Origin: Mesorhizobium sp. M3A.F.Ca.ET.080.04.2.1
Lineage (GTDB): Bacteria > Pseudomonadota > Alphaproteobacteria > Rhizobiales > Rhizobiaceae
Assembly: GCF_003952525.1 (NCBI RefSeq)
Contig: NZ_CP034451.1
Coordinates: forward strand, 124,001-188,000
DNA length: 64,000 nucleotides
Direction: 5' to 3'
Position 1 is the first letter of the stretch; each line of letters begins with the position of its first letter. The notes under the pieces were generated by a model. The model had not been told where the DNA came from and made no database searches. It worked only from the letters and a program-made list of their open reading frames with translations. Shown piece after piece: positions 3,640-24,653 of the stretch. A program made the position numbers and the translations under genes.

Positions 3640-3649
3640 GAGGTACAGT

Positions 3650-6895: not shown

Positions 6896-8470
6896 TCAAT
6901 CAGCCGGCGTCTTGGCGGATTTGGCATTCACATAAGCCCTGATTTCAGGCTGATGGACTTCGTGCTCAGGCCAGAATCGCGCTCTCCTCCACTGCAGCAG
7001 TCCTGGCGTGTAGTAGCCAATTCCCGGCGTCGCAACGCCAAGCGGCGCGCCGATCCCAGCGAAATTCAGCTTGAAGTGATATCCGGATTTCACGACGACG
7101 AAATCCTGGCTCGCGACATCGATGCCTTGGCTCGCAAAAGCCGCCGGGTCGTGGGTGAAGCCCGGCTTGCTCGTCAGCATGATTCTCAGCCGGTCATCGA
7201 CCACCAGCACCGCGGTGCGGCCGAGCGACGTTTCTTCGCCTGCACCGAACGGTCCACCGATCACAAAGCGACCATCGCTGATCGCGGCAACCACGCCGGA
7301 AACCGTGTGAGGCACGAATCCCGGCGTTAGGCCTCCACCGATGGCAAGTGTAACCTGAGCTCCGATGCCGGCCATTGCTGCCGCTTGGACGCTTTCGGGA
7401 TCGGTGACCGGGACGGCACCACGAGGGCGGTCGGCCCGGGCCAGCGCTGTTTCGATGATGGCCGTGCTATCGCCAGGCGCCCCTGCCAGAACCCGGTCTC
7501 CCATGTCGGCCAGGATGTAAGGGCGCCGATCGGGCTCGCGAGCGATGAGCTCGAACGCTTGATCGATAGTCAGAAGGCCGTCTTGGAAGTGCTCGCGACA
7601 AGCCCAGAAAAACTCAGCGAGCTCAATTGCGGCAGTTTGCGCAAGCCGGCTGAGGCCATGCGTCAGCACGACCACTGCCTGTCCCATGCCCTGGTCATCT
7701 GCATAGGGATAGACATTGAACAGAGAGACGTCCCAGATCTCCGTATGCGCAGCGACGAGCACACGTGCACGTGCATGCAGTTCGGCAAGAGGGCCGCTAC
7801 CGGTCTCGGCGGCTCCGGGCAAAATCATGGGCACCTTGGCCATGGTGAGGACCGGGTCGAGCGTTCCGTCCAGCACTGCCGCCAGGCATTCAACTACCCG
7901 CTCACCGCATAAAATCACGTCGGAATGCGGGTTCTCCTTGCATGCGATGCAGATATCAACCGAACTGAGCATGGCCCCTGTAACATGGGCATGCAGGTCA
8001 AGACCGATGCCTATCGGGACGTCCGGCCCCACGGCCTCGCGTAAACGAACCAGAAGATCCCCGTCGGCATCCGGCAGCTCGGTCGTGGCCATTGCGCCGT
8101 GCAATTCGAGCGCGATGGCGTCGTACCGCTCTTGGCGAGCCAGAGCGATCAGCGCGTCCCGCAGCTGAACATAAAAGTCATGGTCTACCAAGCCACCGGG
8201 AGGAGCAACGGCCGAGACTGTCGGCACCAGCAAGTAGCCAAGCTCCGTTGCCCGCTTGACGATGCCGCCAAGGGTCGTCCCGGAGTGCCGTGCGTGAGCG
8301 AGCACGTGCTCGCCACGCTTCACTTCGAACGCCTCACTGAAGGTGATCTGCGGGCTGAAACTGTGAGACTCATGAAAGAGGCGCCCAACGAGAATGCGTC
8401 TGCGAGACGACGGCCTTTCGTCCAGTCGGCGCCGATGTTTGGCTCCGCCTGATGGCATTGCTCCATGCAC
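6896..8470 (-). CDS. MlrC-like M81-family metallohydrolase
   Basis: About 524 residues. It matches the M81 family named after MlrC, the enzyme completing microcystin degradation, but members occur widely next to ABC importers and act on unknown amide/peptide substrates. Visible motifs: RRILVGRLFHESHSFSP near residue 24 onward and the metal-site segment GIGLDLHAHVT. The C-terminal MlrC domain starts about residue 305 (YILADMGDRVLAGAPGDST). I chose GTG 8470 because GGGAG lies 7 bases upstream; the track-style upstream extension runs into the permease gene. It is the last gene of the minus-strand importer operon, 46 bases after the permease gene, suggesting that it hydrolyses the imported compound. 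Confidence 0.85.
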   Translation of the reverse strand: MHGAMPSGGAKHRRRLDERPSSRRRILVGRLFHESHSFSPQITFSEAFEVKRGEHVLAHARHSGTTLGGIVKRATELGYLLVPTVSAVAPPGGLVDHDFYVQLRDALIALARQERYDAIALELHGAMATTELPDADGDLLVRLREAVGPDVPIGIGLDLHAHVTGAMLSSVDICIACKENPHSDVILCGERVVECLAAVLDGTLDPVLTMAKVPMILPGAAETGSGPLAELHARARVLVAAHTEIWDVSLFNVYPYADDQGMGQAVVVLTHGLSRLAQTAAIELAEFFWACREHFQDGLLTIDQAFELIAREPDRRPYILADMGDRVLAGAPGDSTAIIETALARADRPRGAVPVTDPESVQAAAMAGIGAQVTLAIGGGLTPGFVPHTVSGVVAAISDGRFVIGGPFGAGEETSLGRTAVLVVDDRLRIMLTSKPGFTHDPAAFASQGIDVASQDFVVVKSGYHFKLNFAGIGAPLGVATPGIGYYTPGLLQWRRARFWPEHEVHQPEIRAYVNAKSAKTPAD

Positions 8471-8516
8471 AAGATTTCTCCCTTTATTGGCGCGTGGCGC
8501 TAGCCGGGCCCAAGCT

Positions 8517-9368
8517 TCATCCCAGACGGTCATGGTCGCTCCGCCGCCGCGCAATCTCAATCGTGCTCATGAGCACCAGCGAGACCAGCGTCAGGACAGT
8601 CGAAACGGCGGCGATCACCGGCGTAAGATTGAAATCGATGTCCTCGAACATCTTGCGCGTGATCGTCTTGCCCTCGGTGCCGGAGATGAAGAAGGCAACG
8701 GTCGCCTCATCGAACGAGGCGAGGAAAGCGAAGACCGCGCCGGCGGCAACGCCGGGCCGGATGTTCGGCAGCACGATGTGGAAAAACGCCTGCAGGCGCG
8801 TGGCGCCGCAATTGAGTGCCGCAAGCTCGAGGTTCGGATCAAAGCGCTGCAGAGCGGCACTTACTGTGATCACCACGTAGGGCACCGCCAGCATCGAGTG
8901 GGCAATGACGAACCCGTAGAAGTTGCCCACCAGGCCGAGGGGGGCAAAGAAAAGATAGAGCGAGACGGCGATGACGATATGGGGGACGATAAGCGGAGCC
9001 AGCGTCAGCGCCTGGAGGTACTCTTTGGCAGGCAGTCGGCCTCGGATCAATGCAACAGCGGCAAGCGTGCCGATGACCGTGGCCGTGAACGTCGTCGCAA
9101 CAGCGATACGAAGGCTGAACCAGGTCGCGGCCATCCAATCCGGGTCGCTGAAATACGCCTTGTACCACTTGAATGTGAGCCCCAGGGGCGGGAACTCAAT
9201 GTAGGGTGAGGTGCCGACAGACATCGGGATGACGATGAGCGTCGGCAGCAGAAGGAAAAACAGGATTAACCCGATCGGCACCGCGGCAAGAAGTGCCGCC
9301 GTATTGCTGGCGATATGGCCTTTTTCTCGAACGGCTCGTTCAGCAAGAACCAGGTCAGCGTTAGCCAA
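8517..9368 (-). CDS. ABC transporter permease, PotC type
   Basis: About 283 residues from a TTG start at 9368 that overlaps the stop of the upstream permease and has AAGGGG 7 bases before it. The protein has six hydrophobic segments and the inner-membrane-component motif for docking the ATPase (ELAALNCGATRLQAFFHIVLPNIRPG; core: CGATRLQAFFHIVLPNIRPG). The sequence LAPLIVPHIVIAVSLYLFF and the C-terminal FDEATVAFFISG are typical of PotC-like permeases of the spermidine/putrescine family. It pairs with the next permease and with the ATPase at 10251. The substrate is unknown. Confidence 0.92.
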   Translation of the reverse strand: MANADLVLAERAVREKGHIASNTAALLAAVPIGLILFFLLLPTLIVIPMSVGTSPYIEFPPLGLTFKWYKAYFSDPDWMAATWFSLRIAVATTFTATVIGTLAAVALIRGRLPAKEYLQALTLAPLIVPHIVIAVSLYLFFAPLGLVGNFYGFVIAHSMLAVPYVVITVSAALQRFDPNLELAALNCGATRLQAFFHIVLPNIRPGVAAGAVFAFLASFDEATVAFFISGTEGKTITRKMFEDIDFNLTPVIAAVSTVLTLVSLVLMSTIEIARRRSDHDRLG

Positions 9369-10254
9369 GTTTGAACCCCTTGTTAAGCGCGAGCGCGCGC
9401 CGGAAAACAATGACCAGCAAAAGCGTGGCGGCGAGCAGAACCGCGGCCAGCGCTCCTGCGAATGGCCAGTCAAGGAGTTCCGTCGTCTGCTGACCGATCA
9501 AGGTCGACATCATAAGAGTGCCTGGTCCGCCGACGAGCGCCGGCGTGATGTAGAACCCAAGCGACAGAATGAAGGTGATGAGCACCCCTGCCGTCACGCC
9601 GGGAAGGCTCAGCGGCAACGTGACGCGAAAGAAAGCCTGGAGGCTGCCGGCGCCAAGATTGCGCGCCGCTCTCACAAAGTCATCGGGAATGTTGCGGACA
9701 ACCGAATAGATCGGCAAAATCATGAAGGGCAGCAGAACCTGCGTCATCGCCGCGATCACGGCGCCCTGTGTATAGAGGAGCCGCAACGGCGTCCCTGTCA
9801 GCCCTGTCTCGATCAGGGCGTTGTTGACGACACCGTTTCGCTGGAGGAGCACTATCCAGGCGTAGGAGCGAACGAGGACGCTCGTCCACAAGGGGATGAG
9901 CACGCAGGCGGCAATCAGCATTGCTGTGCGCCCAGAGACGCGGGCCATCGCCATAGCCACCGGGTAGCCAAGCAGCAAGGCGAGAGCGGTAACGACGAAG
10001 GCGATCTCGAACGTGCGCCACAGAACAAGCAGGAATAGCGGCTCCTGCAGGATTCGCGCGTAGTTCGCAAACGTCGCTTCCGGTACGAAGACACTGCCCC
10101 AAAAGAGCTTTCCGACCGGGTAGAGGAAGCCCCCAACGAGAAGCAGGACAAGCGGGGCTACGAGAAGCAGCGACAGACCCGGCCCATATTCCTGCGCCGA
10201 AGTTGGGCGGCCCCCAAAAGGACTCCCTGCCAAGGGTTTGGCGCGCATCGTCAC
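9361..10254 (-). CDS. ABC transporter permease, PotB type
   Basis: 297 residues. The GTG start at 10254 overlaps the stop codon of the ATPase gene (GTGA), and the stop overlaps the next permease, so the operon is translationally coupled. It has six membrane segments, the PotB-type QVLLPFMILPIYSVVRNIP and the ATPase-docking loop (RAARNLGAGSLQAFFRVTLP). Family members carry polyamines, or in other branches Fe3+, thiamine or phosphonates. The binding protein of this operon is of the PotD/PotF type, so a small amine or amide is the likely substrate class. Confidence 0.92.
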   Translation of the reverse strand: MTMRAKPLAGSPFGGRPTSAQEYGPGLSLLLVAPLVLLLVGGFLYPVGKLFWGSVFVPEATFANYARILQEPLFLLVLWRTFEIAFVVTALALLLGYPVAMAMARVSGRTAMLIAACVLIPLWTSVLVRSYAWIVLLQRNGVVNNALIETGLTGTPLRLLYTQGAVIAAMTQVLLPFMILPIYSVVRNIPDDFVRAARNLGAGSLQAFFRVTLPLSLPGVTAGVLITFILSLGFYITPALVGGPGTLMMSTLIGQQTTELLDWPFAGALAAVLLAATLLLVIVFRRALALNKGFKLG

Positions 10255-11354
10255 GGCCTCCGCTCCGGAAAGACCTGCACTGCCTGGCTTGGTATGGTCA
10301 GGCCGACGCGTTCGCCTTCTTGCGGGTGCGCAATGCCATGATCCGTGCTGGCCTGAACATGGACGAGCTCGCCTCCGGCAAGGCGCACCAGGAACGTCCG
10401 GAACGAGCCGACAAAGATCACGGCTTCAACGACGCCGTTGAGAGGCGGTCTATCGCTGTCTTCTGGGCGCAAGATTCGTATCTGCTCCGGTCGCACGGCC
10501 ACACGCATTTTGTCGCCAGGCCGGGGCGGCGAGGGCAGATGGGGTGGGCATTCTTTCAGCTGAATGAAGCCGCTTTGGCCAAGGCCGAATTCGAGACCGG
10601 TTCCGTTGCAGCTGTGACAGACAGCTTCCAGGAAGTTTGTCTTGCCGACGAAATCGGCGACAAATGGCGTGGCGGGATTGTCATAGAGCTCGGTCGGTGA
10701 ACCGATCTGCTCCAGCGAGCCGTTGCGCATGACCGCGATACGGTCCGACATGGTGAGCGCCTCCTCCTGGTCGTGAGTCACATAAATGACGGTCACGCCC
10801 AACCGCTGCTGCAGGCGCTTTATCTCGATTTGCATCTGCTCACGCAGCTTCTTGTCGAGCGCGCCAAGTGGCTCGTCCATAAGGAGGACGGGCGGCTCGA
10901 ACACCAAAGCGCGCGCCACTGCCACGCGCTGTTGTTGCCCGCCCGACAGCTCGCTCGGCAGACGTTTGCCAAAGTCTTGGAGTTGCACCAGCGCGAGGGC
11001 GTCGGTGACCCGACGCGCAATCTCGGCTTTCACAACTTTGCGCATGCGCAGCGGAAAGGCGACGTTGTCCGCAACCGTCATGTGGGGAAAAAGCGCGTAT
11101 CGCTGAAACACCATACCGATATTGCGCCGGTTCGGCGCAACATAGGTCACGTCGCGGTCGCCAATCCGGATCGCGCCTTCGCTTGGCATCTCGAAGCCGG
11201 CAATCATCATAAGGAGCGTCGTCTTGCCGGACCCTGACGGTCCCAGAAGCGAGAGGAACTCGCCGGAACGAACCTCGATGCCCACCTCCTTCACGGCGCG
11301 AACCACGCCGTAACGCTTGCCTAGCCCCCGAACCGAAACACTTGCTCCATCCAC
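10251..11354 (-). CDS. ABC transporter ATP-binding protein, PotA type
   Basis: About 367 residues from GTG 11354, which has GGAGG 9 bases upstream; a longer frame exists but has no ribosome-binding site. Walker A LLGPSGSGKTT, signature LSGGQQQRVAVARAL, Walker B VLLMDEPLGALD and the switch His in VIYVTHDQEEA are all intact. The C-terminal ~110 residues form a TOBE-type regulatory domain (DKMRVAVRPEQIRIL), as in PotA/CysA-like importers. It energises the two permeases encoded directly downstream. Confidence 0.95.
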   Translation of the reverse strand: MDGASVSVRGLGKRYGVVRAVKEVGIEVRSGEFLSLLGPSGSGKTTLLMMIAGFEMPSEGAIRIGDRDVTYVAPNRRNIGMVFQRYALFPHMTVADNVAFPLRMRKVVKAEIARRVTDALALVQLQDFGKRLPSELSGGQQQRVAVARALVFEPPVLLMDEPLGALDKKLREQMQIEIKRLQQRLGVTVIYVTHDQEEALTMSDRIAVMRNGSLEQIGSPTELYDNPATPFVADFVGKTNFLEAVCHSCNGTGLEFGLGQSGFIQLKECPPHLPSPPRPGDKMRVAVRPEQIRILRPEDSDRPPLNGVVEAVIFVGSFRTFLVRLAGGELVHVQASTDHGIAHPQEGERVGLTIPSQAVQVFPERRP

Positions 11355-11450
11355 TGCTCGGCTACCTCCAAAAAAGTCGAAAGTTGAGGGACGACATTTC
11401 AGGATCGCCAAGCCTGATGGCTTTGGCAGCCCTGGCGTTCGGAAATCAGT

Positions 11451-12596
11451 TCAGCTCGCGATCCACATGCTCCAGCGCTGCAAAACCTTCTCGCGGTTTG
11501 CGGCAAGCCATTCGCGGTCGACACGAACGATGTTTGACCAGTTGGCGGGCTGCAGCACACTTGAGGCCTTGGCATCGGCCGGCAAGAAATCGAGGGCTCC
11601 GCGCTGAGCTGTCGAGCCGAAAGACTCCGCCGCGAATTCGGCATGCGCCTTCGGGCGCGTGTAGATGAAATCGAGCAGCGCAAGTGCGGCGTTTGGATGC
11701 TGAGCCGCTTTGGTCACGGCCCAAAATGCTGCATCCAGCGGCGCACCGTTCCAGCTAATGCCGAGCGGAATTCCCTCGCCGCGCAGCCGGAAGGCGCGGC
11801 CCGAAAACAGCATAGCCATCACCACTTCGCCCGTACGAAAGATCTGCTGGCTCTGGTCGCCGCTCTTCCACCATACCGTCACATGCGGCTTGATCTCGTC
11901 CAGCTTGCGAAAGGCGCGATCGATGTCCAGTGGGAACAGCGCATCTCGGCTGACGCCATCCGCCTCGAGCGCCGCAATTAATGCCCACCACGGATTGCCG
12001 ATGTTGGGTAGCGCCCTCGGTCCAGGGAAAGCCTTCACGTTCCAAAAATCCGCCCAGCTGGCCGGCTGTGCCTGGCCTTCGGGAAAGCTGCGTTTGTCGA
12101 AGGCAAGAACGCCGCCTCCGATATCAAACATCACGCCCTCGCGCAGACATGAACCGTCGACACCCTGGCTGGCCACGTCCGGCAAGCCGGCGCAATCACC
12201 AAGATCACGAAGCAGGCTCGTGACGTCTGGGGTCAGCGAGTCGATCGAAAGGGTGATGACGTCCCATTCAACCTTTCCAACAGATGTCATGGCCTTCAGC
12301 TTGGCGAGCTTCTCGCCATAGCCGCCGCCGGTCGGGACGACCTCTATGCCCGTGGCTTCGGTAAACGGGAGATAGAAGTGCCTGTTGACAAGATCCCCGT
12401 AGGCGCCGGTGCCGCCCGCCACCACAACATGTCTCTCCCCCGCCTGGCGTGCGCGCTCGACGAGTTCATCCAAGGGGGCCGCCATGACGAGCTGGGGCAA
12501 AGTCAAGCCAACGCCTGCGGCGGCCGCCGCTTGAGCGGCCATGCCAAGCGCTCTGCGCCTGCTCATTGCCGCTGCCTCGATCCGCGATTTGCCCAC
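11451..12596 (-). CDS. Extracellular solute-binding protein of the GntR-linked importer
   Basis: About 381 residues. The N-terminus carries a twin-arginine-like signal (MSRRRALGMAAQAAAAAGVG, starting 10 residues into the protein) with a hydrophobic core and a likely cleavage after QLVMAAP. The body matches family-1/PotD-like periplasmic binding proteins (YGEKLAKLKAMTSVGKVEWD; VWWKSGDQSQQIFRTGEVVM). GTG 12596 has GGGAG 9 bases upstream; ATG 12566 is a possible alternative. It is the first gene of the five-gene importer/MlrC operon and is transcribed divergently from gntR. A GntR-type candidate operator lies 46 bases upstream. Confidence 0.9.
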   Translation of the reverse strand: MGKSRIEAAAMSRRRALGMAAQAAAAAGVGLTLPQLVMAAPLDELVERARQAGERHVVVAGGTGAYGDLVNRHFYLPFTEATGIEVVPTGGGYGEKLAKLKAMTSVGKVEWDVITLSIDSLTPDVTSLLRDLGDCAGLPDVASQGVDGSCLREGVMFDIGGGVLAFDKRSFPEGQAQPASWADFWNVKAFPGPRALPNIGNPWWALIAALEADGVSRDALFPLDIDRAFRKLDEIKPHVTVWWKSGDQSQQIFRTGEVVMAMLFSGRAFRLRGEGIPLGISWNGAPLDAAFWAVTKAAQHPNAALALLDFIYTRPKAHAEFAAESFGSTAQRGALDFLPADAKASSVLQPANWSNIVRVDREWLAANREKVLQRWSMWIAS

Positions 12597-12641
12597 TTTT
12601 CCATTCTCCCGGTTCCAGCCACGAACATGTACTTTTTTAAA

Positions 12642-12663
12642 ATATGAAATTTGGTGTAACAAA
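12642..12663 (-). promoter_or_regulatory. Candidate GntR operator, importer side
   Basis: Read on the minus strand, this site contains TTTGTTACACCAAATTTCA. A near copy, on the plus strand, lies at 13554-13575 in front of the aminotransferase operon; 18 of 22 positions are identical. The core has the form TTG-N6-CAA, which fits the short inverted half-sites bound by FadR/FCD-type GntR regulators. It sits between the binding-protein gene and gntR. Confidence 0.65.
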
Positions 12664-12820
12664 CCGTTCATAATTCTGTCAAGCCGTCGAGACGCTTTTT
12701 GGACCCCTCTGGCGCTAGTTATGTCCCAAGACTAGGTTTAGCCGCATTTTCTTAGCGAATCGCGTGGGAGAAGCTCCTTAACTCCCCGCATCGCATTCAT
12801 GACGGAACGGACGGGAACCA

Positions 12821-13549
12821 ATGTTTGCTGCGCCAAAAAAAGGCAAAGAAGCGCTTCCGGGCGATATTGCGCCGATTGGGCGGCACAGCAGCCTAGGCGA
12901 GAGCGCTTACGCGACCTTGAAAGACTCGCTCATTCGAGGAGCGCTCCAGCCAGGCACGAAGCTTACCCTTCGGTCGGTCGCCCAAGTCCTCGAGGTCAGC
13001 ACCACGCCAGCCCGCGATGCCATCACACGGCTGATCGGGGAGGGGGGGCTGATCAATGCCGGGCCCAAAACCGTCATCGTGCCTTATCTGAGTCTTCCAG
13101 ACCTCGATGAGCTCACGGCAATTCGCCTTTCCCTGGAGGGCTTGGCGGCCGAGCAGGCCACAAACCACGTGACCGAGTCAGACATCCATGAATTGGAAAC
13201 TCTACAGGAACGGATCAATCGCGGTCTGGACGAGGCGCGATACACGGATGTGCTTGATGCCAATAAGGATTTTCACTTCCTGATCTATCGCCGCTCCGGC
13301 ATGCGTCGGCTCGTAACCATCATTGAATCGTTATGGCTCCGCATGGGGCCGGCGTTCAACGGCCTCTATCCGGAGTTCGCGCAATCACGCACTGGCGTTT
13401 CCAACCATTTGTGGGCTCTACGTGGTTTGCATGACCGCGATCCCGCGGCGGTTCGAGCGGCGATCGAGAACGATATTCGCAGCGGCTACCGTCGCTTGTC
13501 CTCGCAACTTGCTGCAATAGGAGAGCAGCAAGGAGAATCGCATACCTAA
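12821..13549 (+). CDS. GntR-family regulator, FCD (FadR) subfamily
   Basis: 242 residues. The N-terminal winged helix (residues ~27-85) has the GntR pattern LKDSLIRGALQPGTKLTLRS and the recognition-helix region LEVSTTPARDAITRLIGEGG (VLEVSTTPARDAITRL). The C-terminal FCD ligand domain follows with the family's metal-site residues plausible in DANKDFHFLIYRRSG and SNHLWALRGLHDRD. Such proteins bind organic acids or amines and usually repress adjacent catabolic operons. The gene lies between two operons that both carry the same candidate operator, so control of both is likely. Confidence 0.93.
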   Translation: MFAAPKKGKEALPGDIAPIGRHSSLGESAYATLKDSLIRGALQPGTKLTLRSVAQVLEVSTTPARDAITRLIGEGGLINAGPKTVIVPYLSLPDLDELTAIRLSLEGLAAEQATNHVTESDIHELETLQERINRGLDEARYTDVLDANKDFHFLIYRRSGMRRLVTIIESLWLRMGPAFNGLYPEFAQSRTGVSNHLWALRGLHDRDPAAVRAAIENDIRSGYRRLSSQLAAIGEQQGESHT

Positions 13550-13553
13550 CTTT

Positions 13554-13575
13554 TTTGTTGCATCAAATTTCAAAA
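13554..13575 (+). promoter_or_regulatory. Candidate GntR operator, aminotransferase side
   Basis: This site contains TTTGTTGCATCAAATTTCA and starts 5 bases after the gntR stop codon, 63 bases before the aminotransferase start. It matches the inverted copy at 12642-12663 in 18 of 22 positions. Together they bracket gntR and suggest that one regulator governs both importer and enzyme operons. Confidence 0.65.
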
Positions 13576-13637: not shown

Positions 13638-15008
13638 GTGATCCCTGTTCCGGCCAGTTTACAGACGTCCAAAGCGGCGGCTTTTCCGCCGGGGCAGCAT
13701 TCGCGGGCACTGTTTGAGCGCGCTCATGCCGTCTTCCCTGACGGAACGACACGCATCACCGTCGAACGCGACCCCGTTCCTCGCTACATTGCGCGCGCAG
13801 AGGGAGCCTATCTGACCGACGTCGACGGCAGGCGCTTCCTCGACCTCAACTTGAATTTCACCACGCTCATTCACGGGCACGCTTTCGAACCGGTGCGTGC
13901 GGCCGTCGAAAGCCAGATGAGGAGCGGCACCTGCTTTGCCAACCCAACGGAGGCGGAAGTCGAGCTCGCTTCCGTCCTATGCGCCCGCGTGCCTCGGCTG
14001 GAGCGGATCCGCTTCGTCAATACAGGCACTGAAGCCGTCATGTTCGCGATCAAGGCGGCCCGCGCGTTCACCGGACGATCTCGCATCGCCAAGATCGAAG
14101 GCGCCTATCATGGGGCTTATGATTGGGTGGAAGTGGCTCAGGCAAGCGTCCCCGAGAACTGGGGCCTTCCGGACAGCCCGGCGGCGACGCCCTATTACCG
14201 CGGCATGCCGGCTTCGGTGCTGGACGATGTGGTGGTGCTACGGTTCAACGATGCGGCTGGAACGCGCGAATTACTGAACCGGCGCGCCAGCGAAATCGCG
14301 GCGGTGCTAATCGATCCGATGCCCAGCCGGGCCGGGCTCATCGCCCCCGAACCGGAATTCGTTTCCGCTCTCCAGGAAACGGCGCGCAAGCACGGGATTC
14401 TTCTCATCGCCGACGAGGTCCTCAATTTTCGTCAGGACTATCACGGCGCCTCGGCACACTATGGTCTCCAGCCGGACCTGTTTGCCTTGGGCAAGATTAT
14501 TGGGGGCGGGTTTCCGATTGGAGCGGTCGGAGGTCTGGGCGAAATCATGAGCGTGTTCGACGGCAGCCGCGGCCGGCCATTGCTTCCGCAAGGCGGGACG
14601 TTTTCGGCGAATCCGATTTCCATGGTGGCTGGCCGGGCCGCAATGAACGCCCTCGATGAAATCGCCTTTGCCCGGCTTGAACGGCTGGGTAACCAACTGC
14701 GGAACCGCTTGGAGGACATTATCGCACGGGCAAATGCGCCGCTTAGCATTACCGGGGCGGCTTCGCTCTTCCGTATCCACCCGAAGCCGACGCGTCCACG
14801 CGAGTTCCGGGAAGCGCATTGGAACCCTGCCGAAGCCAAAGCCATGAAGGAGACGTCCCGATTCTTCGCGGGACAAGGTATCGTCCTTCCCGTTGGCGCG
14901 GCGGCCTGTCTTTCGACGACTATGGGCGAGGCGGAAATCGATGCGGTCGCCGGCGTCTTTGAAGCATTCCTTTCTGAAAATTCCGCCCTCATCGAGGAGA
15001 TAGCCTGA
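13638..15008 (+). CDS. Class III PLP aminotransferase, glutamate-1-semialdehyde mutase-like (paralog 1)
   Basis: 456 residues from GTG 13638 with a GGAGGTGGAG ribosome-binding site. The fold-type I class III pattern is clear: RFVNTGTEAVMFAIKAARAF (PLP phosphate site), IADEVLNFRQ with the ring-binding Asp, and the Schiff-base Lys in FALGKIIGGGFPIGAVGG. The sequence is closest in style to HemL-like enzymes, but the catabolic context rules out a simple heme role; aminomutase or omega-transaminase activity is possible. It is the first enzyme gene of the plus-strand operon; its stop overlaps the next start (TGATG). A clear paralog is encoded at 21944-23275. Confidence 0.9.
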   Translation: MIPVPASLQTSKAAAFPPGQHSRALFERAHAVFPDGTTRITVERDPVPRYIARAEGAYLTDVDGRRFLDLNLNFTTLIHGHAFEPVRAAVESQMRSGTCFANPTEAEVELASVLCARVPRLERIRFVNTGTEAVMFAIKAARAFTGRSRIAKIEGAYHGAYDWVEVAQASVPENWGLPDSPAATPYYRGMPASVLDDVVVLRFNDAAGTRELLNRRASEIAAVLIDPMPSRAGLIAPEPEFVSALQETARKHGILLIADEVLNFRQDYHGASAHYGLQPDLFALGKIIGGGFPIGAVGGLGEIMSVFDGSRGRPLLPQGGTFSANPISMVAGRAAMNALDEIAFARLERLGNQLRNRLEDIIARANAPLSITGAASLFRIHPKPTRPREFREAHWNPAEAKAMKETSRFFAGQGIVLPVGAAACLSTTMGEAEIDAVAGVFEAFLSENSALIEEIA

Positions 15009-17526: not shown

Positions 17527-18989
17527 ATCCTTCAGCGCTTGTCGAGCCAGCCACAAAAATTCGGATGATTACCATGCCCTTTGCAACGAACGCCTCAGGG
17601 GTGCCAGCCGGCTCGAATGAGCCGCAACGCAGTGATCTCATCGTCCACAATGCCACAATCCTCACGGTGGACGCCGATGATCGCGTTATTCGGACCGGCG
17701 CGCTTGCCGTCCGAAACGGACGCATCGTCGCGCTTGACCGGCAAGAGAAGATTTTCGCCAGCTATGCCTCAGACCAGTTGTTCGATGCGGCAGGAGGCGC
17801 GGTCCATCCGGGGTTCATAGACGCCCACGTTCATGTCTCCCAGTACACGGCGCGCAGCGTTTTGCCCCTGATGGAAGGGACCTCCGTTACCATGGGGCAC
17901 TGGAAAGGCGGGCTGACCCCAGAAGATGAGTATGCAAGCGCCCGTTTGGCTGCTCTCGATTACCTGCAATGTGGCTATACCGGCTTTGTCGATCCTGGAA
18001 CTGTCTTTGAGCCTGACGCAGTCGCGGCCGTTGCTGATGAAGCCGGTATTCGCATCTGGCTCACTGACCCTTACGTCGCCGACGGCGGTGAGGCGCTGGC
18101 CGCTGATTTACCTGAACTGGTCAGCGAGAACTTTCTCGCCCGCTGGCCGCGAAACACCGATGAAGCGTTGAAGAGATTGGGGGGCCAGCTGTTTCGCAAT
18201 CGCAACCCAGACAGCCTGGTGAAAGCCTTCGTCGGACTCTACGGGGAGGCGACCGATTCACCCGAACTCTACCAAGCCGCCCTGAGCCTAGCCCGTGATC
18301 GCGATGTGAGATTTCAAGAGCATCTTGGATATCTTCCGGCCTTTCAGCTGAAACGCGAGAAGGCGCTTGGGCAGCCACTGCTGAGGTGGTTCGAGGAACG
18401 TGGGTTCCTGGATTCCCACGTCACGTTCACTCACATGAACCTGGTGCGCGAAGACGAGATTTCGCTTCTCGGGAAATTTGGAGTGCGCGTCGTCTGGTGT
18501 CCGTGGGGCCAGCTGCAAATGCTTGGCAAGGACGGTGCCCAGGCACGCATGGCGGACATGCATCGCGCCGGCGTGAAGGTCGGGATCGCCAGTGATATCC
18601 CTCGTGTTGCCGACTTCGATGTCCTTGGAAGCCTGGCCGCCTCGGCTGCCGCGACCTCGGGACGGCCTGCAAAGCCGAGGGAGATTCTGCGCATGCGCAC
18701 GCTTGGCGCCGCGGCGACGATCGGTGCCGATGGAGAGCTAGGCAGTCTCGAGGTCGGCAAGCGCGCCGACTTCGTGGTGCGGTGTCCGAGCGCTTCTGTG
18801 AATTTCGGCTTCGATCCGGGCCTTGAGCTTGGAGTCATCGGCGGCCGCCACACCGTGAAAGCGGTGTACGTGGGCGGTCGTCAGGTCGTCGATGGCGGGA
18901 AGGTCGTCACGCTGGACGACGACTCGGTCATTGCCGCAGCGCATCGCTCGGCGCGCGCGCTTGCATCCAGGATAGGCCTTCGCGCCTGA
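17523..18989 (+). CDS. Amidohydrolase, deaminase/chlorohydrolase-like (paralog 1)
   Basis: 488 residues in the metal-dependent amidohydrolase superfamily, closest in style to the S-adenosylhomocysteine/cytosine deaminase and chlorohydrolase group (TrzN/AtzA-like). Metal and catalytic positions visible: HVHVSQY (residues ~101-107), QEHLGY, a His in FTHMNL and the Asp in IASDIPR. The small beta domain is at both ends (LIVHNATILTVDADD; GKRADFVVR). The ATG at 17523 overlaps the SDR stop. It ends 6 bases before the convergent end of its own paralog. It would hydrolyse or deaminate a ring or amidine substrate; the exact one is unknown. Confidence 0.9.
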   Translation: MNPSALVEPATKIRMITMPFATNASGVPAGSNEPQRSDLIVHNATILTVDADDRVIRTGALAVRNGRIVALDRQEKIFASYASDQLFDAAGGAVHPGFIDAHVHVSQYTARSVLPLMEGTSVTMGHWKGGLTPEDEYASARLAALDYLQCGYTGFVDPGTVFEPDAVAAVADEAGIRIWLTDPYVADGGEALAADLPELVSENFLARWPRNTDEALKRLGGQLFRNRNPDSLVKAFVGLYGEATDSPELYQAALSLARDRDVRFQEHLGYLPAFQLKREKALGQPLLRWFEERGFLDSHVTFTHMNLVREDEISLLGKFGVRVVWCPWGQLQMLGKDGAQARMADMHRAGVKVGIASDIPRVADFDVLGSLAASAAATSGRPAKPREILRMRTLGAAATIGADGELGSLEVGKRADFVVRCPSASVNFGFDPGLELGVIGGRHTVKAVYVGGRQVVDGGKVVTLDDDSVIAAAHRSARALASRIGLRA

Positions 18990-18995
18990 GGCCGA

Positions 18996-20405
18996 TCAGG
19001 CAAGGTGAAGGCGGGCCGCAAGGCCTCGCACTGACTGACGGGCGCGAGCTATCACGGCGGGCCTGTCGGCCTTCAGCACCTCGCCACGCTTTAGAACGCA
19101 CTTGCCGTCAACGAACACGGAGTCGATGGTGCCAGCGTCGGCGATGACCGCGAATTCCAGCGCCGGATCAAACCCCAGGTTTTCGGATACATCCGGCCTA
19201 CGGACTACGAAATCGGCGCGCTTGCCGACCTCGAGACTACCAAGTTCCGAAGCCGCGCCCACCGTGGCAGCTGATCCGATTGTGCGCATGCGCAGGATTT
19301 CGTGCCCAGACGCGGCCAGCCCCGTTGCCGCCGCCGTCACGGCGGCCAATGTACCGAGCCCGCCAAAATGCACAGCGCGAGGAATGTCACTTGCGATCCC
19401 AACCTTTACGCCGGCCCGATGCAGCTCCACCATCCGGCCTTCGGCGCCGCCCCGGCCAAGCATCTGCAACTGCCCGTAGGGGCACCATACTATGCCGACA
19501 TCCCGTGCCTTGAGGATCTGGACGTCCCCCGGATGAACAGCATTCATGTGGACAAAGGTGACATGGCTATCGAGGAGACCTTCACCGCTCATATGCTCCA
19601 TCATACTGGCCCCGAGCGCGTATTCACGTTGACGGTAAAGCAGAGGCGCGTAGCCCAGATGCTCCTGCAATTGCACGCCATGCTCACGGGCCAGATCGAA
19701 GGCGGTGCGAAAAAGCGCTTGCGAGTCCGTGCCTTCGCCATAGAGGCCAACAAATGCTCTGACGAGACTGTTCCGGTCCTTGTTGCGGAATAATTGTGAT
19801 CCCAAACGGCGGAAGGCTTCGTCCCGATTTTTTGGCCAAAGGGCAAGAAACGACTCGCTGACAAGTTCCGGAAAGTGTTTCTGGAGTTCCGTGCCGGCGT
19901 CGGCGACATACGGATCGGTCAGCCATATGCGAATGCCGAATTCATCCGCGACCGGGGCGACCGCGTCCGGACAAAATATGGTGCCCGGGTCGACGAAGCC
20001 AGTGTAACCGCTTCTTAAATAGTCGACAGCCGCTAGGGCCGCGCTCGCGTGCTCATCATCGGGTGTAAGCGCGCTTTTCCAGTCGCCCATCGTGACACTT
20101 GTTCCGTCCATGCAGGAAAGGACGCTGCGCGAGGTGTACTGGGAAATATGGACATGGGCGTCGATGAAGCCGGGATGGAGGATTCCTCCGCCAGCGTCGA
20201 TGACCTCGCGGAAATCATGGTGAGAAAGGATATCCCGACTGTATCCGACTGCAACAATCAGCCCATCGTGGACCGCCACGGCGCCGTTCGCGATCACCTG
20301 GTCTTTCGCATCGACCGTCAGAAGCACCGCATTGTGAACGACAAGGTCATACACTTGCCTCTCATTCTTCGAGGGACCCATCGTCTTCGCGGTCAAGGCT
20401 TCCAT
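18996..20405 (-). CDS. Amidohydrolase, deaminase/chlorohydrolase-like (paralog 2)
   Basis: 469 residues, strongly similar along its whole length to the protein at 17523-18989 (shared blocks GFIDAHVH, SQYT.RSVL, GTSVTMG.W, SGYTGFVDPGT, IRIWLTDPYVAD). The metal-site pattern is the same: HVHISQY, QEHLGY, FVHMN and ASDIPR. The start ATG 20405 has GGGAGAG 5 bases upstream. It is the last gene of the second minus-strand block. The two paralogs meet tail to tail with a 6-base gap. Retention of both suggests related but distinct substrates rather than a very recent copy, as the flanking genes differ. Confidence 0.9.
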   Translation of the reverse strand: MEALTAKTMGPSKNERQVYDLVVHNAVLLTVDAKDQVIANGAVAVHDGLIVAVGYSRDILSHHDFREVIDAGGGILHPGFIDAHVHISQYTSRSVLSCMDGTSVTMGDWKSALTPDDEHASAALAAVDYLRSGYTGFVDPGTIFCPDAVAPVADEFGIRIWLTDPYVADAGTELQKHFPELVSESFLALWPKNRDEAFRRLGSQLFRNKDRNSLVRAFVGLYGEGTDSQALFRTAFDLAREHGVQLQEHLGYAPLLYRQREYALGASMMEHMSGEGLLDSHVTFVHMNAVHPGDVQILKARDVGIVWCPYGQLQMLGRGGAEGRMVELHRAGVKVGIASDIPRAVHFGGLGTLAAVTAAATGLAASGHEILRMRTIGSAATVGAASELGSLEVGKRADFVVRRPDVSENLGFDPALEFAVIADAGTIDSVFVDGKCVLKRGEVLKADRPAVIARARQSVRGLAARLHLA

Positions 20406-20467
20406 GATTTCTCTCCCTACTTACGAGCATGGTGCGAGCTGTTGGCTCGCATTTTTTCTCGATCGCC

Positions 20468-20986
20468 TTACCGGCGCGGGCGCGCCTCGTAAAAACCCTT
20501 CACGCAATCGCCGTATGTTCTGTCTTCGACATGTGTGAACCCGATCTTTTCGGCCGCGCGAATCGCGCGTGCGTTCTCGGGCCTGATCAGCGCGACCACC
20601 CGCTCCAGGCCAAGTTCCTCGAAGGCATAGCGCAGGATCTCCCCGCCGAGTTCGGGACCGATCCCGCGGCCAGCAATATGCCCGAACAAGCAAAGGCCGT
20701 ACTCGACATCCGCCGTATCCTCGAAGCGGCGCAGGCCCGCGCGGCCCGCGAATTCGTTTCCTGCCCGCGAATTTCCTCTCAAGAACACGCCAAAAAAGCC
20801 AAATCCGTTCTGCCGCCAAGCCTGGACATACTGGTCCAGCTTTTCCTCGGTGTTCCGGCGGGACGGAGGCTCGCCTGAAAACAGGGATTGTACGACCAAC
20901 GGATCGGTGTGCAGGCGATGAACGTCTTCGAGGTCGGACTTGGCCAGCGGGCGCATAAAAAGTCGCGGCGTCTCAAGAGCAAGCAT
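20468..20986 (-). CDS. GNAT N-acetyltransferase, RimJ/RimL-like
   Basis: 172 residues of the GNAT fold. The N-terminus LETPRLFMRPLAKSDLEDV is the typical beginning of RimJ/RimL-type acetyltransferases. The acetyl-CoA site is represented by LFGHIAGRGIGPELGGE (the Q/R-x-x-G-x-G/A pattern), and the C-terminus ENARAIRAAEKIGFTHVED is the usual alpha4 region. A GAGGAAAC ribosome-binding site precedes ATG 20986. By position in the block it could acylate a primary amine of the small molecule made here, for protection or export. Confidence 0.9.
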   Translation of the reverse strand: MLALETPRLFMRPLAKSDLEDVHRLHTDPLVVQSLFSGEPPSRRNTEEKLDQYVQAWRQNGFGFFGVFLRGNSRAGNEFAGRAGLRRFEDTADVEYGLCLFGHIAGRGIGPELGGEILRYAFEELGLERVVALIRPENARAIRAAEKIGFTHVEDRTYGDCVKGFYEARPRR

Positions 20987-21007
20987 GATTGTTTCCTCAA
21001 AAGCGTG

Positions 21008-21925
21008 TCATAATTTTCGGGAGATGAGCCCTCGAGCGAAAAAGACGCTGGCGATTATCGGCATCATGAGCATCATTTGGATTGGAGTTGGCCTCTCGCC
21101 GAGAAACCCGGCGCCGAAGGCGATACTCAAAGCAGGGACCAGGTAATGGTGCGTGCTGGCAAAGGCCGGCCCACTCAACCTGATCAAGCGATAGTAGGCG
21201 ACGTACATCACTGCTGTGGACACGACGCCGAGTAGCAGCAGAGCAACAAGAGCCTGCGCTGTCGGGGTGATCGCCCAAGGGCGTTCGAAGGCAAGGCTCA
21301 GCGGCAGTAACATTGGAATTGCGCAGATCATGACCGCCGTTCCAGTCACGAGTGCATTCTTGTCCTGTAGTCGGGCCACCGCGCGACCGGACAGCGCATA
21401 GCTTGCAGCTGCTCCCAAAAGGGCCGCAAGCGGTGCGGCACTTCTGCTTGAATGCAGCGTCGATATTCCGGACGGGCTCAGGAACCCGGCCAGGCTGATA
21501 AAGCCCACCAACAGACCGAAGATGATTGCTCGCGATGGCTTCTCACGAAGGGCAAGACAGGCGAGAAGCACCGCGAAGAGAGGCGTCGTAGCGACCAGGA
21601 TCGCCATCTCGCTCACCGGCACGGTCATGGAGGCCCACGCGATCAGATAGAGAGGCAGAGCGTGGCCGAACAATGCGATCTGCGCGTATCTGGCCCAGGC
21701 ATCGAAGCTTGCGGGAAGGGATTCTGCATGGCCAAACCTCAACCACACAAGCAGCACGGTTGCAGCGATCAGCAGCCTCGCCGTCGCAAGGGTTGCCGGC
21801 GGCACATCAAGAACCGCAATCTTGATGAGAATATAAGAGCCCGCCCACCAAACTGAGACGGCGGCGAGCAGCAGGTAGGCGAGGAGCGATCGCCGATCGT
21901 TAGCAACTGCAAAGGCGCCCTTCAT
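21008..21925 (-). CDS. EamA/DMT-family transporter, likely exporter
   Basis: About 305 residues with ten hydrophobic segments in two EamA repeats (residues ~12-145 and ~155-290). The first repeat includes WWAGSYILIKIAV and ATARLLIAATVLL; the second has the matching LSGPAFASTHHYLVPALSIAFG, shown in short: SGPAFASTHHYLVPALS. The family (RhaT/YdcZ/RarD relatives) mostly exports amino acids and metabolites. ATG 21925 fits an AGGAGG 9 bases upstream; ATG 21934 lies directly on that site and is less likely. It follows the aminotransferase gene by 18 bases. Confidence 0.9.
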   Translation of the reverse strand: MKGAFAVANDRRSLLAYLLLAAVSVWWAGSYILIKIAVLDVPPATLATARLLIAATVLLVWLRFGHAESLPASFDAWARYAQIALFGHALPLYLIAWASMTVPVSEMAILVATTPLFAVLLACLALREKPSRAIIFGLLVGFISLAGFLSPSGISTLHSSRSAAPLAALLGAAASYALSGRAVARLQDKNALVTGTAVMICAIPMLLPLSLAFERPWAITPTAQALVALLLLGVVSTAVMYVAYYRLIRLSGPAFASTHHYLVPALSIAFGAGFLGERPTPIQMMLMMPIIASVFFARGLISRKL

Positions 21926-21943
21926 GACTGTCATCCTCCTGCC

Positions 21944-23275
21944 TCACCCGACAGCGGCGGACGGTGTCGTGGCGGCCAGCTTTGCCAATGCTCGCCCGAA
22001 CCGGACGGCGAGCGTGGCGATCTCGGCCGTTGCCATTGGGGTTGAAAGGGCCCCCAGGCCAATGCGCGATAGGAGAATGCCTTCGTTGCGGCAGAGCGAA
22101 ATCAACCGCGAAAGGCGCTGTCTTTGGTGCCACGCATGATAGGCGCTCGCGTAGTCCTTTACTTCTCCGTCGCCAACGAACACGCAAAAAAGGGAGCCGG
22201 CGCCGGTGACATGCCCTCCTATATCTGAGGCAGCCAGTGTTGCGCCAAGTTCCGAACGAGCTTGCGCTCCAAGGGCGTTGAGCCGCTCGATCTCCACTTC
22301 GGTCAGGGCGCGCATGGCGGCAGCCCCTGCAACCATGCTTAGTGGATTGGCGGTGAAGGTCCCTGCCTGGGAGACGGGCGGTTTGCCGCGGCTTGGATCA
22401 AAGACGCGCATGGTTTCGGCTCGACCGGCAACAGCCCCGATTGGCAGTCCGCCGCCGACGATCTTGCCGAAGGTGCACAGGTCCGGTTCGACCCGGTAGG
22501 TGGCAATCGCGCCGCGATAGCTCAGCCGGAAGCTCAGAACTTCATCCGAGATCAGCAGAATTCCATGGCGGGCCGTGAACTCGCGCAGGAAATGCAGGTA
22601 CGTGTGATCGACGGGTACCAGCCCCGCGCGCGATGGAAGGGGGTCGATGACAATGCAGGCCAGCGTCTGCTTGTGCCGCTCCAGCACCCGCTCAGTCGCA
22701 TCGACGTTGTTGAAAGGAATGACGACCACCTCGGCCAGGACTGAGGCCGGGGTTCCGTGGTTATACGCCTGGGCCTCTGCGGTCCCCGTTTGCCAGTCGG
22801 CCGGAACAGGATCGAAACTTGCTTCCACATAGTCGTAGTTGCCGTGATAGGCGCCCTCACATTTTGCTATTTGCGGGCGCCCGGTGAGGGCACGTGCGGC
22901 CTTGATGGCCATCATCACCGCTTCAGATCCTGTATTTGTGAAGCGCACCTGCTCGAAGAAGGGCACCCTTTCGCAAAGAATCTCAGCGAGATCGATCTCA
23001 CTCTCGGTGGGATTGGCAAAACTCAGTCCCCGGCCGATTTGTGTGATCAGCGCCGAGTTCACGTCCGGGTGGTCATAGCCATGGATCAGGGCCGTGAAAT
23101 TGTTCTGGAAATCCAGATAGGCGTTGTCGTCGACATCTATCACATAGGCTCCCTTTCCGGATTTCTGATAAAGCGGAAAGGGCGCCTCGTAGACGCTGCT
23201 GCGGGTGTTGCCTCCAGGCATGACCTTTTTCGCACGCTCATGAGCCAGGCGAGAGGTCCTCATTTGCTCGGTCAT
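21944..23275 (-). CDS. Class III PLP aminotransferase, GSA mutase-like (paralog 2)
   Basis: About 443 residues. Same family and layout as the protein at 13638-15008: GNTRSSVYEAPFPLY versus GTTRITVERDPVPRY at the N-terminus, then FTALIHG, RFTNTGSEAVMMAIKAARAL, LISDEVLSFR with the PLP Asp, and the Lys in CTFGKIVGGGLPIGAVAG. The start at 23275 (MTEQMRTSRL) has GGAG about 11 bases upstream; ATG 23263 is possible. The gene sits between the alpha-oxoamine synthase and the exporter, so it may aminate, or move the amino group of, the synthase product. Confidence 0.9.
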   Translation of the reverse strand: MTEQMRTSRLAHERAKKVMPGGNTRSSVYEAPFPLYQKSGKGAYVIDVDDNAYLDFQNNFTALIHGYDHPDVNSALITQIGRGLSFANPTESEIDLAEILCERVPFFEQVRFTNTGSEAVMMAIKAARALTGRPQIAKCEGAYHGNYDYVEASFDPVPADWQTGTAEAQAYNHGTPASVLAEVVVIPFNNVDATERVLERHKQTLACIVIDPLPSRAGLVPVDHTYLHFLREFTARHGILLISDEVLSFRLSYRGAIATYRVEPDLCTFGKIVGGGLPIGAVAGRAETMRVFDPSRGKPPVSQAGTFTANPLSMVAGAAAMRALTEVEIERLNALGAQARSELGATLAASDIGGHVTGAGSLFCVFVGDGEVKDYASAYHAWHQRQRLSRLISLCRNEGILLSRIGLGALSTPMATAEIATLAVRFGRALAKLAATTPSAAVG

Positions 23276-23393
23276 GGTCCGAAACTCCGATAAGACGCCT
23301 TGTCCGGATGCGACTTGATTGGGTGGAAAGCTCGGCCCTACAAGCCTCGACGAAGCCGCTTGATGCCGCGTCGGAAGCGAAGTCATTCGGGGC

Positions 23394-24653
23394 TCAGGCC
23401 GCCGTTAGTGCTTCTTGCTCATAGCAAGCAATCTTGGCGCAGAGCTGCTCCAGGTCCGAAAGCTCGTGACTTGCCGTCAGGCAGATGCGTATGCCCGACC
23501 GACCCTGAGCAACCGTCGGAAAGAACGTCACGGATGTGTAAAAGCCTTCGTCGAGCAGGCGCTCCGCGAACTTGATGGCCGCGAATTCGTCACCGACCTT
23601 GATCATGCGGATCGGCAGCAGGGCGCCGCGCTGGTCTGTCTCGATGTGCTTGTCGAAAAAGGCAATCCGCTCGGCCAAGCGTTCCTGGCGAAGCTTAAGC
23701 TCGGCCGTTTGGTGAATCTTCGCCGAGGCGAGGGCGGCGCCAACGGCGGCGACATTGGGTGAAGCGGAGAATGCATGAGGAAGGGAGTAGCAGCGAAACA
23801 GCGCCTCCTGATGCACCGTTCCCAGCATGAGCATGCCGCCCGAAGCGCCGAAGCCCTTGCCGAGCGAAGCCGCGACGATCGTGCGCTCGCCAAGTTCGGG
23901 GGGCAATTGCGAGCGCACAAAACCTTCGCCGTTGTTACCAAAGAGCGAAATTCCGTGCGCATCGTCGATATAGAGAAAAAGACCATACTTTTCCTGCAAC
24001 CTCAGAAGTTCTTTGATCGGCGCAAAGCCGCCCATCGAATAGACGCCATCGCATACATAGGCGACGACCGGATGCTTCCGGCAAATCTGCTCCAAGGCAT
24101 CGAGGTCGCTGTGAGGAATAGTCTCGACCTGCGTTTCTTGCGCAACGACTGGTTTGTGAAAAGCCAGAGAGGCATGGGCCAGACGGTCGAAAACCATCAC
24201 TGGTTTCTGCCCCTCCGTCAGATGTCCAGAGGCAATGATCGGCAGTGCCCCCATGTTGGCGACCATAACCGTTGAATAGGCAATGACGCGTGCGCCAAAG
24301 AGTTGGGAAAGGGTGCCCTCCAGATCGCCTATGAGCCCAAAATTCAACCGAGTGCGCGCACAGGACCAGTGAAGCGAGCCATATTCTTCGACTGCCGTGA
24401 TGGCGCCGGCAACGATAGCCGGATGATTGTCGAGGCCAAGGTAGGAACAGCGCACATAGTCTGTGATAGTATTCCCTCGGCGGTCTCCTGCCGTGAGTGA
24501 GACGGCCCTTCCCAGTCCGGAGTGCCCGTAAACGGCCATCAGCCCGCGGCGGTGAGCCTCCTCGAAAAACGTTCGAGTCCGGTCGATGACCGAGGCAGTG
24601 TTGCGGAAGCGAGCAGCGCGGCCAGCGCTTGCTGGAGATTCTGCTGCTGACAT
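23394..24653 (-). CDS. Alpha-oxoamine synthase-family PLP enzyme
   Basis: 419 residues from ATG 24653 behind AAGGAGG. Fold-type I PLP enzymes of this family (KBL, BioF, ALA synthase, serine palmitoyltransferase, CqsA) condense an amino acid with an acyl thioester to give an alpha-amino ketone. Visible: SCARTRLNFGLIGDLE (substrate loop), FLYIDDAHGISLFG with the PLP Asp, and the Schiff-base Lys in AASLGKGFGASGGM. The N-terminal ~40 residues are extra compared with BioF. It is first in the minus-strand block and has no linked biotin or heme genes. The product is not predictable, but this is the most clearly biosynthetic enzyme of the island. Confidence 0.88.
   Translation of the reverse strand: MSAAESPASAGRAARFRNTASVIDRTRTFFEEAHRRGLMAVYGHSGLGRAVSLTAGDRRGNTITDYVRCSYLGLDNHPAIVAGAITAVEEYGSLHWSCARTRLNFGLIGDLEGTLSQLFGARVIAYSTVMVANMGALPIIASGHLTEGQKPVMVFDRLAHASLAFHKPVVAQETQVETIPHSDLDALEQICRKHPVVAYVCDGVYSMGGFAPIKELLRLQEKYGLFLYIDDAHGISLFGNNGEGFVRSQLPPELGERTIVAASLGKGFGASGGMLMLGTVHQEALFRCYSLPHAFSASPNVAAVGAALASAKIHQTAELKLRQERLAERIAFFDKHIETDQRGALLPIRMIKVGDEFAAIKFAERLLDEGFYTSVTFFPTVAQGRSGIRICLTASHELSDLEQLCAKIACYEQEALTAA

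Follow-up and report, generated by a model that had tools for sequence, protein, structure and literature searches.

The 64-kb stretch of Mesorhizobium sp. M3A.F.Ca.ET.080.04.2.1 analysed here (the window, i.e., bases 124001-188000 of one 6.17-Mb contig, NZ_CP034451.1; gene coordinates below are window positions unless marked as contig positions) carries, beside plasmid-transfer genes, an island of small-molecule genes that includes an alpha-oxoamine synthase-family enzyme (AOS); in nitrogen-fixing bacteria, related clusters are likewise neighbours of transfer genes. We propose, with a probability of about 60%, that this island is a diverged and enlarged RctR-type module of rhizobial conjugative plasmids, in which a small amino compound gates transfer, and that it may carry the chemical cue letting rhizobial plasmids move. 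The gene content, the co-occurrence of the genes, the palindromic site that they share, their kinship and synteny with loci of Sinorhizobium meliloti pSymA and Agrobacterium fabrum pAtC58, and their position beside transfer genes are direct observations. In the module as we picture it, a dedicated opine-family ATP-binding cassette (ABC) importer would take up the small amino compound, and a GntR/FCD repressor, encoded between the importer and an operon for an aminotransferase, a thiamine diphosphate (ThDP) enzyme and a short-chain dehydrogenase/reductase (SDR), would bind a palindrome at both promoters and be released on binding either this compound or one of its products. The AOS, placed directly behind a response regulator, would belong to the same pathway. 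Homology with pSymA suggests that the circuit, once opened, would feed the decision to start conjugation in this host. In the variant found in the window, the AOS unit adds an aminotransferase, a GNAT acetyltransferase and an exporter, the importer unit adds an MlrC-family hydrolase, and the compound would receive an acyl group before it is exported and lose it again once imported.

A core of importer, regulator and enzymes around the AOS

The importer genes lie on the minus strand and encode two permeases, PotC-like (8517-9473) and PotB-like (9361-10254), both under their model cut-offs; an ATPase of the PotA subfamily (10251-11411; TIGR01187, 392 bits, cut-off 355.6); and a substrate-binding protein of the mannopine/agropine/gamma-aminobutyric acid (GABA) type (11451-12671), for which a start at 12566 (MSRRRALG..., Tat-like by our judgement) is more probable than one at 12671. 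The top solved relative of the binding protein is the mannopine-binding 5l9s (203.5 bits), followed more weakly by GABA-sensor, agropine and polyamine binding proteins; it also matches 6hly at 100 bits, and its membership of the opine family holds for the family, not for the substrate. The gene of an MlrC/M81-family amide hydrolase (6896-8560, minus strand; PF07364 252 bits, PF07171 126 bits) closes this unit. On the plus strand, the gene of the GntR/FCD regulator, a predicted repressor (12821-13549) that shares 57% of 203 aligned residues with its counterpart in the matching gene order of pSymA, is followed by those of a class III aminotransferase (AT-B, 13638-15008; PF00202 186 bits; top solved relative 6k8h, 409 bits), the ThDP enzyme (15008-16747; PRK06112 913 bits, cut-off 673; top solved relative BbmA, 224 bits), a FabG-like SDR identified by domain and family model matches (16747-17526) and an amidohydrolase (AH-B, 17523-18989; PF01979). 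The other unit, on the minus strand, starts with a PhoB/OmpR-type response regulator, likewise identified by domain and family models (24967-25788), just upstream of the AOS (23394-24653; PRK07505 518 bits, cut-off 342). It continues directly with a second class III aminotransferase (AT-A, 21944-23386; PF00202), then an EamA exporter (21008-21934; PF00892), the GNAT acetyltransferase (20468-20986; PF13302) and a second amidohydrolase (AH-A, 18996-20405; PF01979), whose gene converges on that of AH-B with 6 bases between them. The catalytic motifs that were looked for, including the Lys/His/Asp motifs of the AOS, are found in the AOS, both aminotransferases, the ThDP enzyme, the SDR, MlrC and both amidohydrolases.

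The NCBIfam subfamily of the AOS, PRK07505, is labelled merely "hypothetical protein". The closest solved relative of the AOS, 8xha from Streptomyces albogriseolus (262 bits), comes from another phylum and bears the enzyme name Alb29 (PMC11906848). The AOS falls under both the BioF model TIGR00858 (163 vs 426 bits) and the 2-amino-3-ketobutyrate CoA ligase (KBL) model PRK06939 (131 vs 460 bits). A separate bioF-like gene, itself under the bioF cut-off (345 vs 426 bits), lies at 36150-37433 beside bioB and bioA, which disfavours the AOS as the BioF of the host.

The AOS served as a query (E <= 1e-90) against 394 Rhizobiaceae genomes sampled evenly from a larger group. For the 18 other AOS loci we compared the DNA on either side, adding extra pieces for the three genomes (G217, G281 and G297) in which the core lies outside these flanks or on another contig; the identity thresholds for counting homologs around the AOS are our own choice. 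The AOS was detected in 19 of the 394 genomes, and all 19 carry the binding protein, the PotC-like permease, the GntR regulator, AT-B, the ThDP enzyme and the SDR. The AOS accompanies the "take" arm, since this core is complete in every AOS genome. Such a co-occurrence is more than chance, and the natural unit is the AOS with the importer, GntR and the AT-B/ThDP/SDR enzymes. For G297, the linkage of the AOS to the core is not established, because they stand on different contigs. The converse search gave a similar picture: 35 of the 394 genomes pass 1e-160 with the ThDP enzyme, 20 of them at 776 bits or more and the remainder at 700 or less, and the 20 genomes of this close clade include all 19 AOS genomes, G123 being the twentieth. 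A response-regulator homolog lies near the AOS in 17 of the 19, a homolog of the HEPN-nucleotidyltransferase of the island edge in 14, and a LuxI homolog in 5. In a class-wide search of 385 genomes at 1e-100, the sole AOS match was in the genome of the window itself.

The other genes are patchy: EamA and AH-B homologs were each found in 4 of the 19 AOS genomes, AT-A in 3 and AH-A in 2, and in 11 the "make" arm is reduced to the AOS, without GNAT, EamA, AT-A or amidohydrolase homologs in the stretches examined. With AH-A as the query, this type of amidohydrolase appears in 5 of the 394 genomes, one of which (G233) has no AOS. These counts bear on an earlier reading made from the sequence alone, which had described a system with two mirrored arms, one synthesizing and one consuming a small molecule by means of paralogous enzymes, and had suggested looking for the joint occurrence of the synthase with both aminotransferase and both amidohydrolase families. 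All the genes that it named are where it placed them, on the strands it gave, and the paralogy is real (47% identity over 420 residues between AT-A and AT-B, 59% over 466 between AH-A and AH-B); the poor fit of the synthase to the BioF and KBL models, given above, is in its favour. The co-occurrence holds for AT-B and fails for AT-A, AH-A and AH-B, and the counts support neither two separate pathways nor paralogous enzymes as the essence of the island. A recent inverted duplication as the source of the mirrored arms is rejected as well, AT-A and AT-B falling in two well-separated clades. Of the sequence-only reading as a whole, the single linked unit for a small molecule, with genes of the synthesis and uptake types, stands; its separate arms, its emphasis on paralogy and, as told further on, its symbiotic replicon and rhizopine kinship do not.

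The two-unit layout recurs elsewhere. Neorhizobium galegae pHAMBI1141b has AOS-AT-A-GNAT, followed by MlrC-binding protein-permeases-ATPase, which face GntR-AT-B-ThDP-SDR; pB2-1-8 carries a complete orthologous island; and the AOS relatives of named Mesorhizobium (L001-L003 and L006) show 84-97% identity. An AT-A-type aminotransferase follows the AOS in N. galegae, G047 and Mesorhizobium, and also in Pelagibius, there with a formyltransferase between the two; AT-A also has relatives on plasmids of Caballeronia and Mesorhizobium, where they sit in other, catabolic-looking clusters. The AOS seems to have been exchanged between loci, since that of pEmeLPU88b (L012) groups with Mesorhizobium and its ThDP enzyme elsewhere in the respective trees. 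Set aside from the comparisons were L010 (21% identity, among ten loci), L061 (the same region as L054), L001 and L002 (whose stretches end after AH-A), and L005, L007 and L009 (matching contigs of G359, G281 and G047).

Kinship with the pSymA RctR locus and the pAtC58 att region

On S. meliloti pSymA, the importer is followed by GntR-AT-B-ThDP-SDR-regulator 1, then by a HEPN-nucleotidyltransferase and by regulator 2-AOS. The window has importer, GntR, aminotransferase, ThDP enzyme and SDR in the same order, with identities of 62% for AT-B, 67% for the ThDP enzyme, 52% for the SDR, 64% for the AOS and 37% for the binding protein. As on pSymA, a response regulator directly precedes the AOS, and the same palindrome is found. 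We infer that the pSymA GntR is RctR and that regulator 1 is RctC, taking SMa0955 to be rctR and SMa0961 to be rctC. The printed annotation of SMa0956, glutamate-1-semialdehyde aminomutase (PMC3272708), fits AT-B. RctR, which controls conjugation in answer to a signal reported as unidentified, represses the adjacent multi-enzyme operon, and rctC activates the antirepressor rctB; this activation circuit is present in 13 of 30 pSymA-like plasmids (PMC13274422). The window thus shares with RctR-type loci a GntR gene (12821-13549) beside a multi-enzyme operon (13638-18989), homologous enzymes in the pSymA order and the palindrome as defined here. Among the differences, the 25.7 kb examined on pSymA hold no MlrC, GNAT, EamA, AT-A or amidohydrolase homolog, and the window element, unlike the rctR-rctC locus, comes with trb, repABC and luxI/luxR. 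In RctR-type systems, loss of RctR de-represses transfer, and the RctA repressor and RctB antirepressor govern a virB-type transfer system; the transfer genes inside the window are of the trb type.

The palindrome, a 16-bp motif (TTTTGTTGCAACAAAA), came from a scan of the flanks of the GntR genes, and was counted with up to 3 mismatches against expectations from shuffled sequences. It lies before AT-B, at the enzyme promoter, in 29 of 30 loci (0.01 expected) and in the gap between importer and GntR in 24 of 29 (0.05 expected), two places that also served to define the motif. The response regulator preceding the AOS offers a fresh test: among 23 such loci chosen by hand, 12 have the palindrome before the regulator, pSymA included, vs 0.03 expected. 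In these 12 loci the AOS would be within reach of the repressor, because the palindrome precedes the regulator, provided that regulator and AOS are co-transcribed and that GntR binds the site. Directly before the AOS gene itself, the promoter shows the site in 0 of 24 loci, and a GntR site there was discarded. In the window, the candidate GntR operator before the enzyme operon (TTTTGTTGCATCAAAT, 13553-13568, no strand assigned) has 2 mismatches to TTTTGTTGCAACAAAA and is the sole site with 3 or fewer in the whole 64 kb, where 0.05 were expected and 5 of 100 shuffles had one. Before the importer lies a degenerate candidate operator (ATTTGGTGTAACAAAC, 12649-12664, no strand assigned) with 4 mismatches to the consensus, and sites resembling it are found in L011, L017 and L018. 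In an alignment of 10 distinct AOS upstream regions, inspection by eye shows an element like TTAAtAAtAATTCAC in 8, the two without it being Chelativorans-type; that it serves as a regulator site is a guess.

A second relative is pAtC58 of A. fabrum, which carries the same importer, GntR, enzymes and AOS between blcR and traA, so that here too a transfer gene is close by; unlike the window, it has no GNAT or MlrC homolog in the stretch examined. By order and product, its core importer appears to be attA1A2BC, the names attA1, attA2, attB and attC being given in Table 4 of PMC4051167; atu5126-5130 have been termed the att transport operon (PMC7486931), and the att genes were proposed to act in attachment, a role later doubted or called unclear (PMC4018554). 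The earlier statement that no described pathway with this gene set is known is not supported, given that the core matches the enzyme and importer part of the pSymA RctR locus and of the pAtC58 att region. The excerpts of the RctR and att literature, which do not include the original RctA and RctR papers, contain no description of the enzyme chemistry of the core, and neither "aminotransferase" nor "acetolactate" occurs in PMC13274422 and the other papers searched for these words. We also considered the AOS-adjacent regulator as RctB and dropped this assignment. The regulator cannot simply be equated with RctB, because R. etli p42d, a plasmid reported to use RctA/RctB (PMC7403402), yields no match to the copy on pSymA.

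Possible roles in consumption or signalling, and the proposed acylation pair

The GNAT and MlrC genes, which lie in different units of the island, go together: both are present in 8 of the 19 AOS genomes and both absent in 11, with 0 discordant (Fisher 1.3e-5). Over 30 units that include named plasmids, 11 have both and 19 neither, a count that leaves out L003, L004 and Pelagibius in addition to the general exclusions. The combined form is that of the window, pB2-1-8 and seven other genomes; AT-A is present in 3 of the 8 genomes that have both. This concordance, arisen in few independent events, fits an acylate/de-acylate pair, and a cycle of acylation by GNAT and de-acylation by MlrC would suit a molecule both released and taken back.

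Several observations weigh against the RctR-type reading or parts of it. The genome G123 has the ThDP enzyme, AT-B and GntR, and no AOS at 1e-90; pEmeLPU88b, MesoLj131c2 and Pelagibius have the AOS without an importer in the stretch examined; and in M. amorphae (L006) the importer match is the ATPase alone. The enzyme operon of the window, unlike that of pSymA, has AH-B after the SDR and ends without a response regulator, the regulator of the island preceding the AOS instead, and the regulator beside the pSymA AOS is the one that finds no match on p42d. The regulator/AOS unit of the window lacks the palindrome (5-6 mismatches), which is also absent at this place from all 7 Mesorhizobium and Chelativorans-type loci tested, pAtC58, G270, G308 and G328. 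As to the acylation pair, L003 and L004 show GNAT without MlrC in stretches that end before the importer. The counts of the pair are not independent points, since the ThDP tree shows 4 changes per trait and 3 well-supported independent pairs, all concordant (sign test p = 0.25), and the AOS tree 2 independent pairs (p = 0.5).

The island may also be an opine-like nutrient module, a possibility that we place somewhat short of even odds. The core would then only degrade an imported plant or bacterial amino compound, the AOS cleaving it, as KBL works in the cleaving direction, and transfer would be coupled to feeding as in Ti plasmids. Much resembles opine catabolism and Ti conjugation: the binding protein is of the mannopine/agropine/GABA family, and uptake and enzyme genes stand beside transfer and LuxI/LuxR genes. 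That importer and enzymes share the palindrome is the arrangement usually seen in inducible catabolic operons; moreover, a window-type EamA homolog is not near the AOS in 15 of the 19 genomes. To our knowledge, the AOS-ThDP core is not part of known opine operons, and no opine-named enzyme model is among the matches listed for the island proteins. The coupling of opines to conjugation is established (PMC4231840); on the other side, the literature describes alpha-oxoamine synthases as enzymes that form C-C bonds irreversibly (PMC11906848). The loci without an importer in the stretch examined also argue against pure consumption by pairing the AOS with export and ligation genes: on pEmeLPU88b it lies beside a major facilitator superfamily (MFS) exporter and ATP-grasp L-amino-acid ligases, in Pelagibius it has the same company with transposase pieces in between, and on MesoLj131c2 it comes with an ATP-grasp fragment. 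As a general AOS partner, the ATP-grasp ligase is a weak candidate, being common on rhizobial plasmids, and two of the loci opened have no annotated AOS-type gene within 9 kb.

The same ligases and exporters favour a self-made signal, in which the cells bearing the plasmid would make, export, re-import and sense an amino-ketone-derived conjugation pheromone. The AOS-AT-A-GNAT unit beside the MlrC-importer unit in N. galegae and in the window, the concordance of GNAT and MlrC, and the fact that 12 of 23 loci have a repressor-type site ahead of the regulator-AOS unit, a requirement of autoinduction, all point this way. Against it, exporters are not conserved, the product is not known, 11 of the 19 AOS genomes have neither GNAT nor MlrC, and the AOS scores 81 bits under the known (CqsA-type) autoinducer-synthase model PRK07179, whose cut-off is 428. 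We regard such a pheromone as unlikely, though far from negligible. Consumption and self-made signal are not exclusive of the RctR-type module; both stand within or beside it. In a further version, the cue for RctR-gated conjugation would be plasmid-encoded and diffusible, a molecule based on an amino-ketone that the AOS makes, exported by the cells, re-imported through the opine-type importer and read by GntR; we put this forward tentatively, as rather doubtful, and if it is true the cue would be acetylated in the GNAT/MlrC variant.

The sequence-only reading had compared the island to the rhizopine mos/moc loci of symbiotic replicons. What the two have in common is the notion that a single replicon provides for both making and using a compound, and the island does hold genes of both the synthesis and the uptake type. 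MocA of rhizopine catabolism is a Gfo/Idh-type dehydrogenase, and among the island proteins scanned there is no Gfo/Idh domain. The importer is of the polyamine/opine type, a relative of the island lies on pAtC58 of A. fabrum, which is not a nodulator, and the sole nifH match over the cut-off, at 3.82 Mb of this 6.17-Mb contig, is separated by no less than 2.4 Mb from the island, which instead has repABC and transfer genes upstream. A rhizopine-like symbiotic system is therefore very improbable, and neither the symbiotic replicon nor the kinship with rhizopine loci could be upheld. Equally improbable is a mere gathering of unrelated accessory genes on a mobile element, for which the patchy amidohydrolases, EamA and AT-A and the disagreement of the AOS and ThDP trees over pEmeLPU88b would speak. 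Against it, none of the 19 AOS genomes lacks any part of the core, and the core genes have a palindromic site in common; such an origin may apply to the two amidohydrolases.

Neighbourhood of the island and significance

The window opens with the end of a trb conjugation operon (449-4966, plus strand), including trbL (449-1645; PRK13841 719 bits) and trbI (3650-4966; PRK13831 768 bits); repABC and VirB11-like and VirB4-like matches lie just upstream of the island, and a TraA-type relaxase lies at 45 kb. Adjoining the trb genes, 5102-5698 encodes a protein with two cold-shock domain matches. The edge of the island is marked by a nucleotidyltransferase-HEPN protein (5951-6877, plus strand; weak Pfam matches to NTP_transf_2 and HEPN), which in the window stands at the MlrC end and in the Chelativorans-type loci L036, L037 and L038 at the regulator/AOS end. 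At the other side follow, on the plus strand, a LuxI-family autoinducer synthase (26952-27524; PF00765 58 bits) and a LuxR-family regulator (27564-28274; PF03472, PF00196). In G217, a second single-contig genome of the genus, the AOS lies at a similar place (121 kb).

Beside the transfer element lies a nad-bio-thi vitamin cluster (30986-45079) with nadA, nadB, nadC, bioB, the bioF-like gene, bioA, a FabH-like gene, thiC and thiO. A succinate-semialdehyde dehydrogenase (40354-41907) is 76% identical to one inside the AOS locus of pEmeLPU88b. The relatives of the ATP-grasp ligase (LAL_C2) of that plasmid were found in 100 plasmid records, 98 of them from Rhizobium, Sinorhizobium or Mesorhizobium and 91 predicted to be conjugative. 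Farther on, 48482-59479 may hold a further set for uptake and amide hydrolysis: a second polyamine-type ABC importer with fused permeases, a LacI-family regulator and two caprolactamase-like subunits that score under the cut-off of 1000 (508 and 263 bits). Outside the window, some 7 kb from nifH (3821204), contig positions 3829342-3830043 encode a response regulator 44% identical to the one preceding the AOS, which hints at a related control circuit in that region.

The stimulus that lifts the RctA repression of symbiotic plasmids is stated to be unknown (PMC8628070, PMC9601222, PMC7403402). The RctR-type reading provides several handles on this question, i.e., an AOS found with the core in 19 of 19 genomes, a 16-bp site, a binding protein for the ligand and, with GNAT and MlrC, the prediction of an acylated form. 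A diffusible cue of the kind outlined above, if true, would be a second chemical language for rhizobial plasmid transfer beside the acyl-homoserine lactones, here adjoining luxI/luxR. Should the RctR-type reading hold, the signal by which nodulation plasmids pass from one soil bacterium to another would become directly testable.

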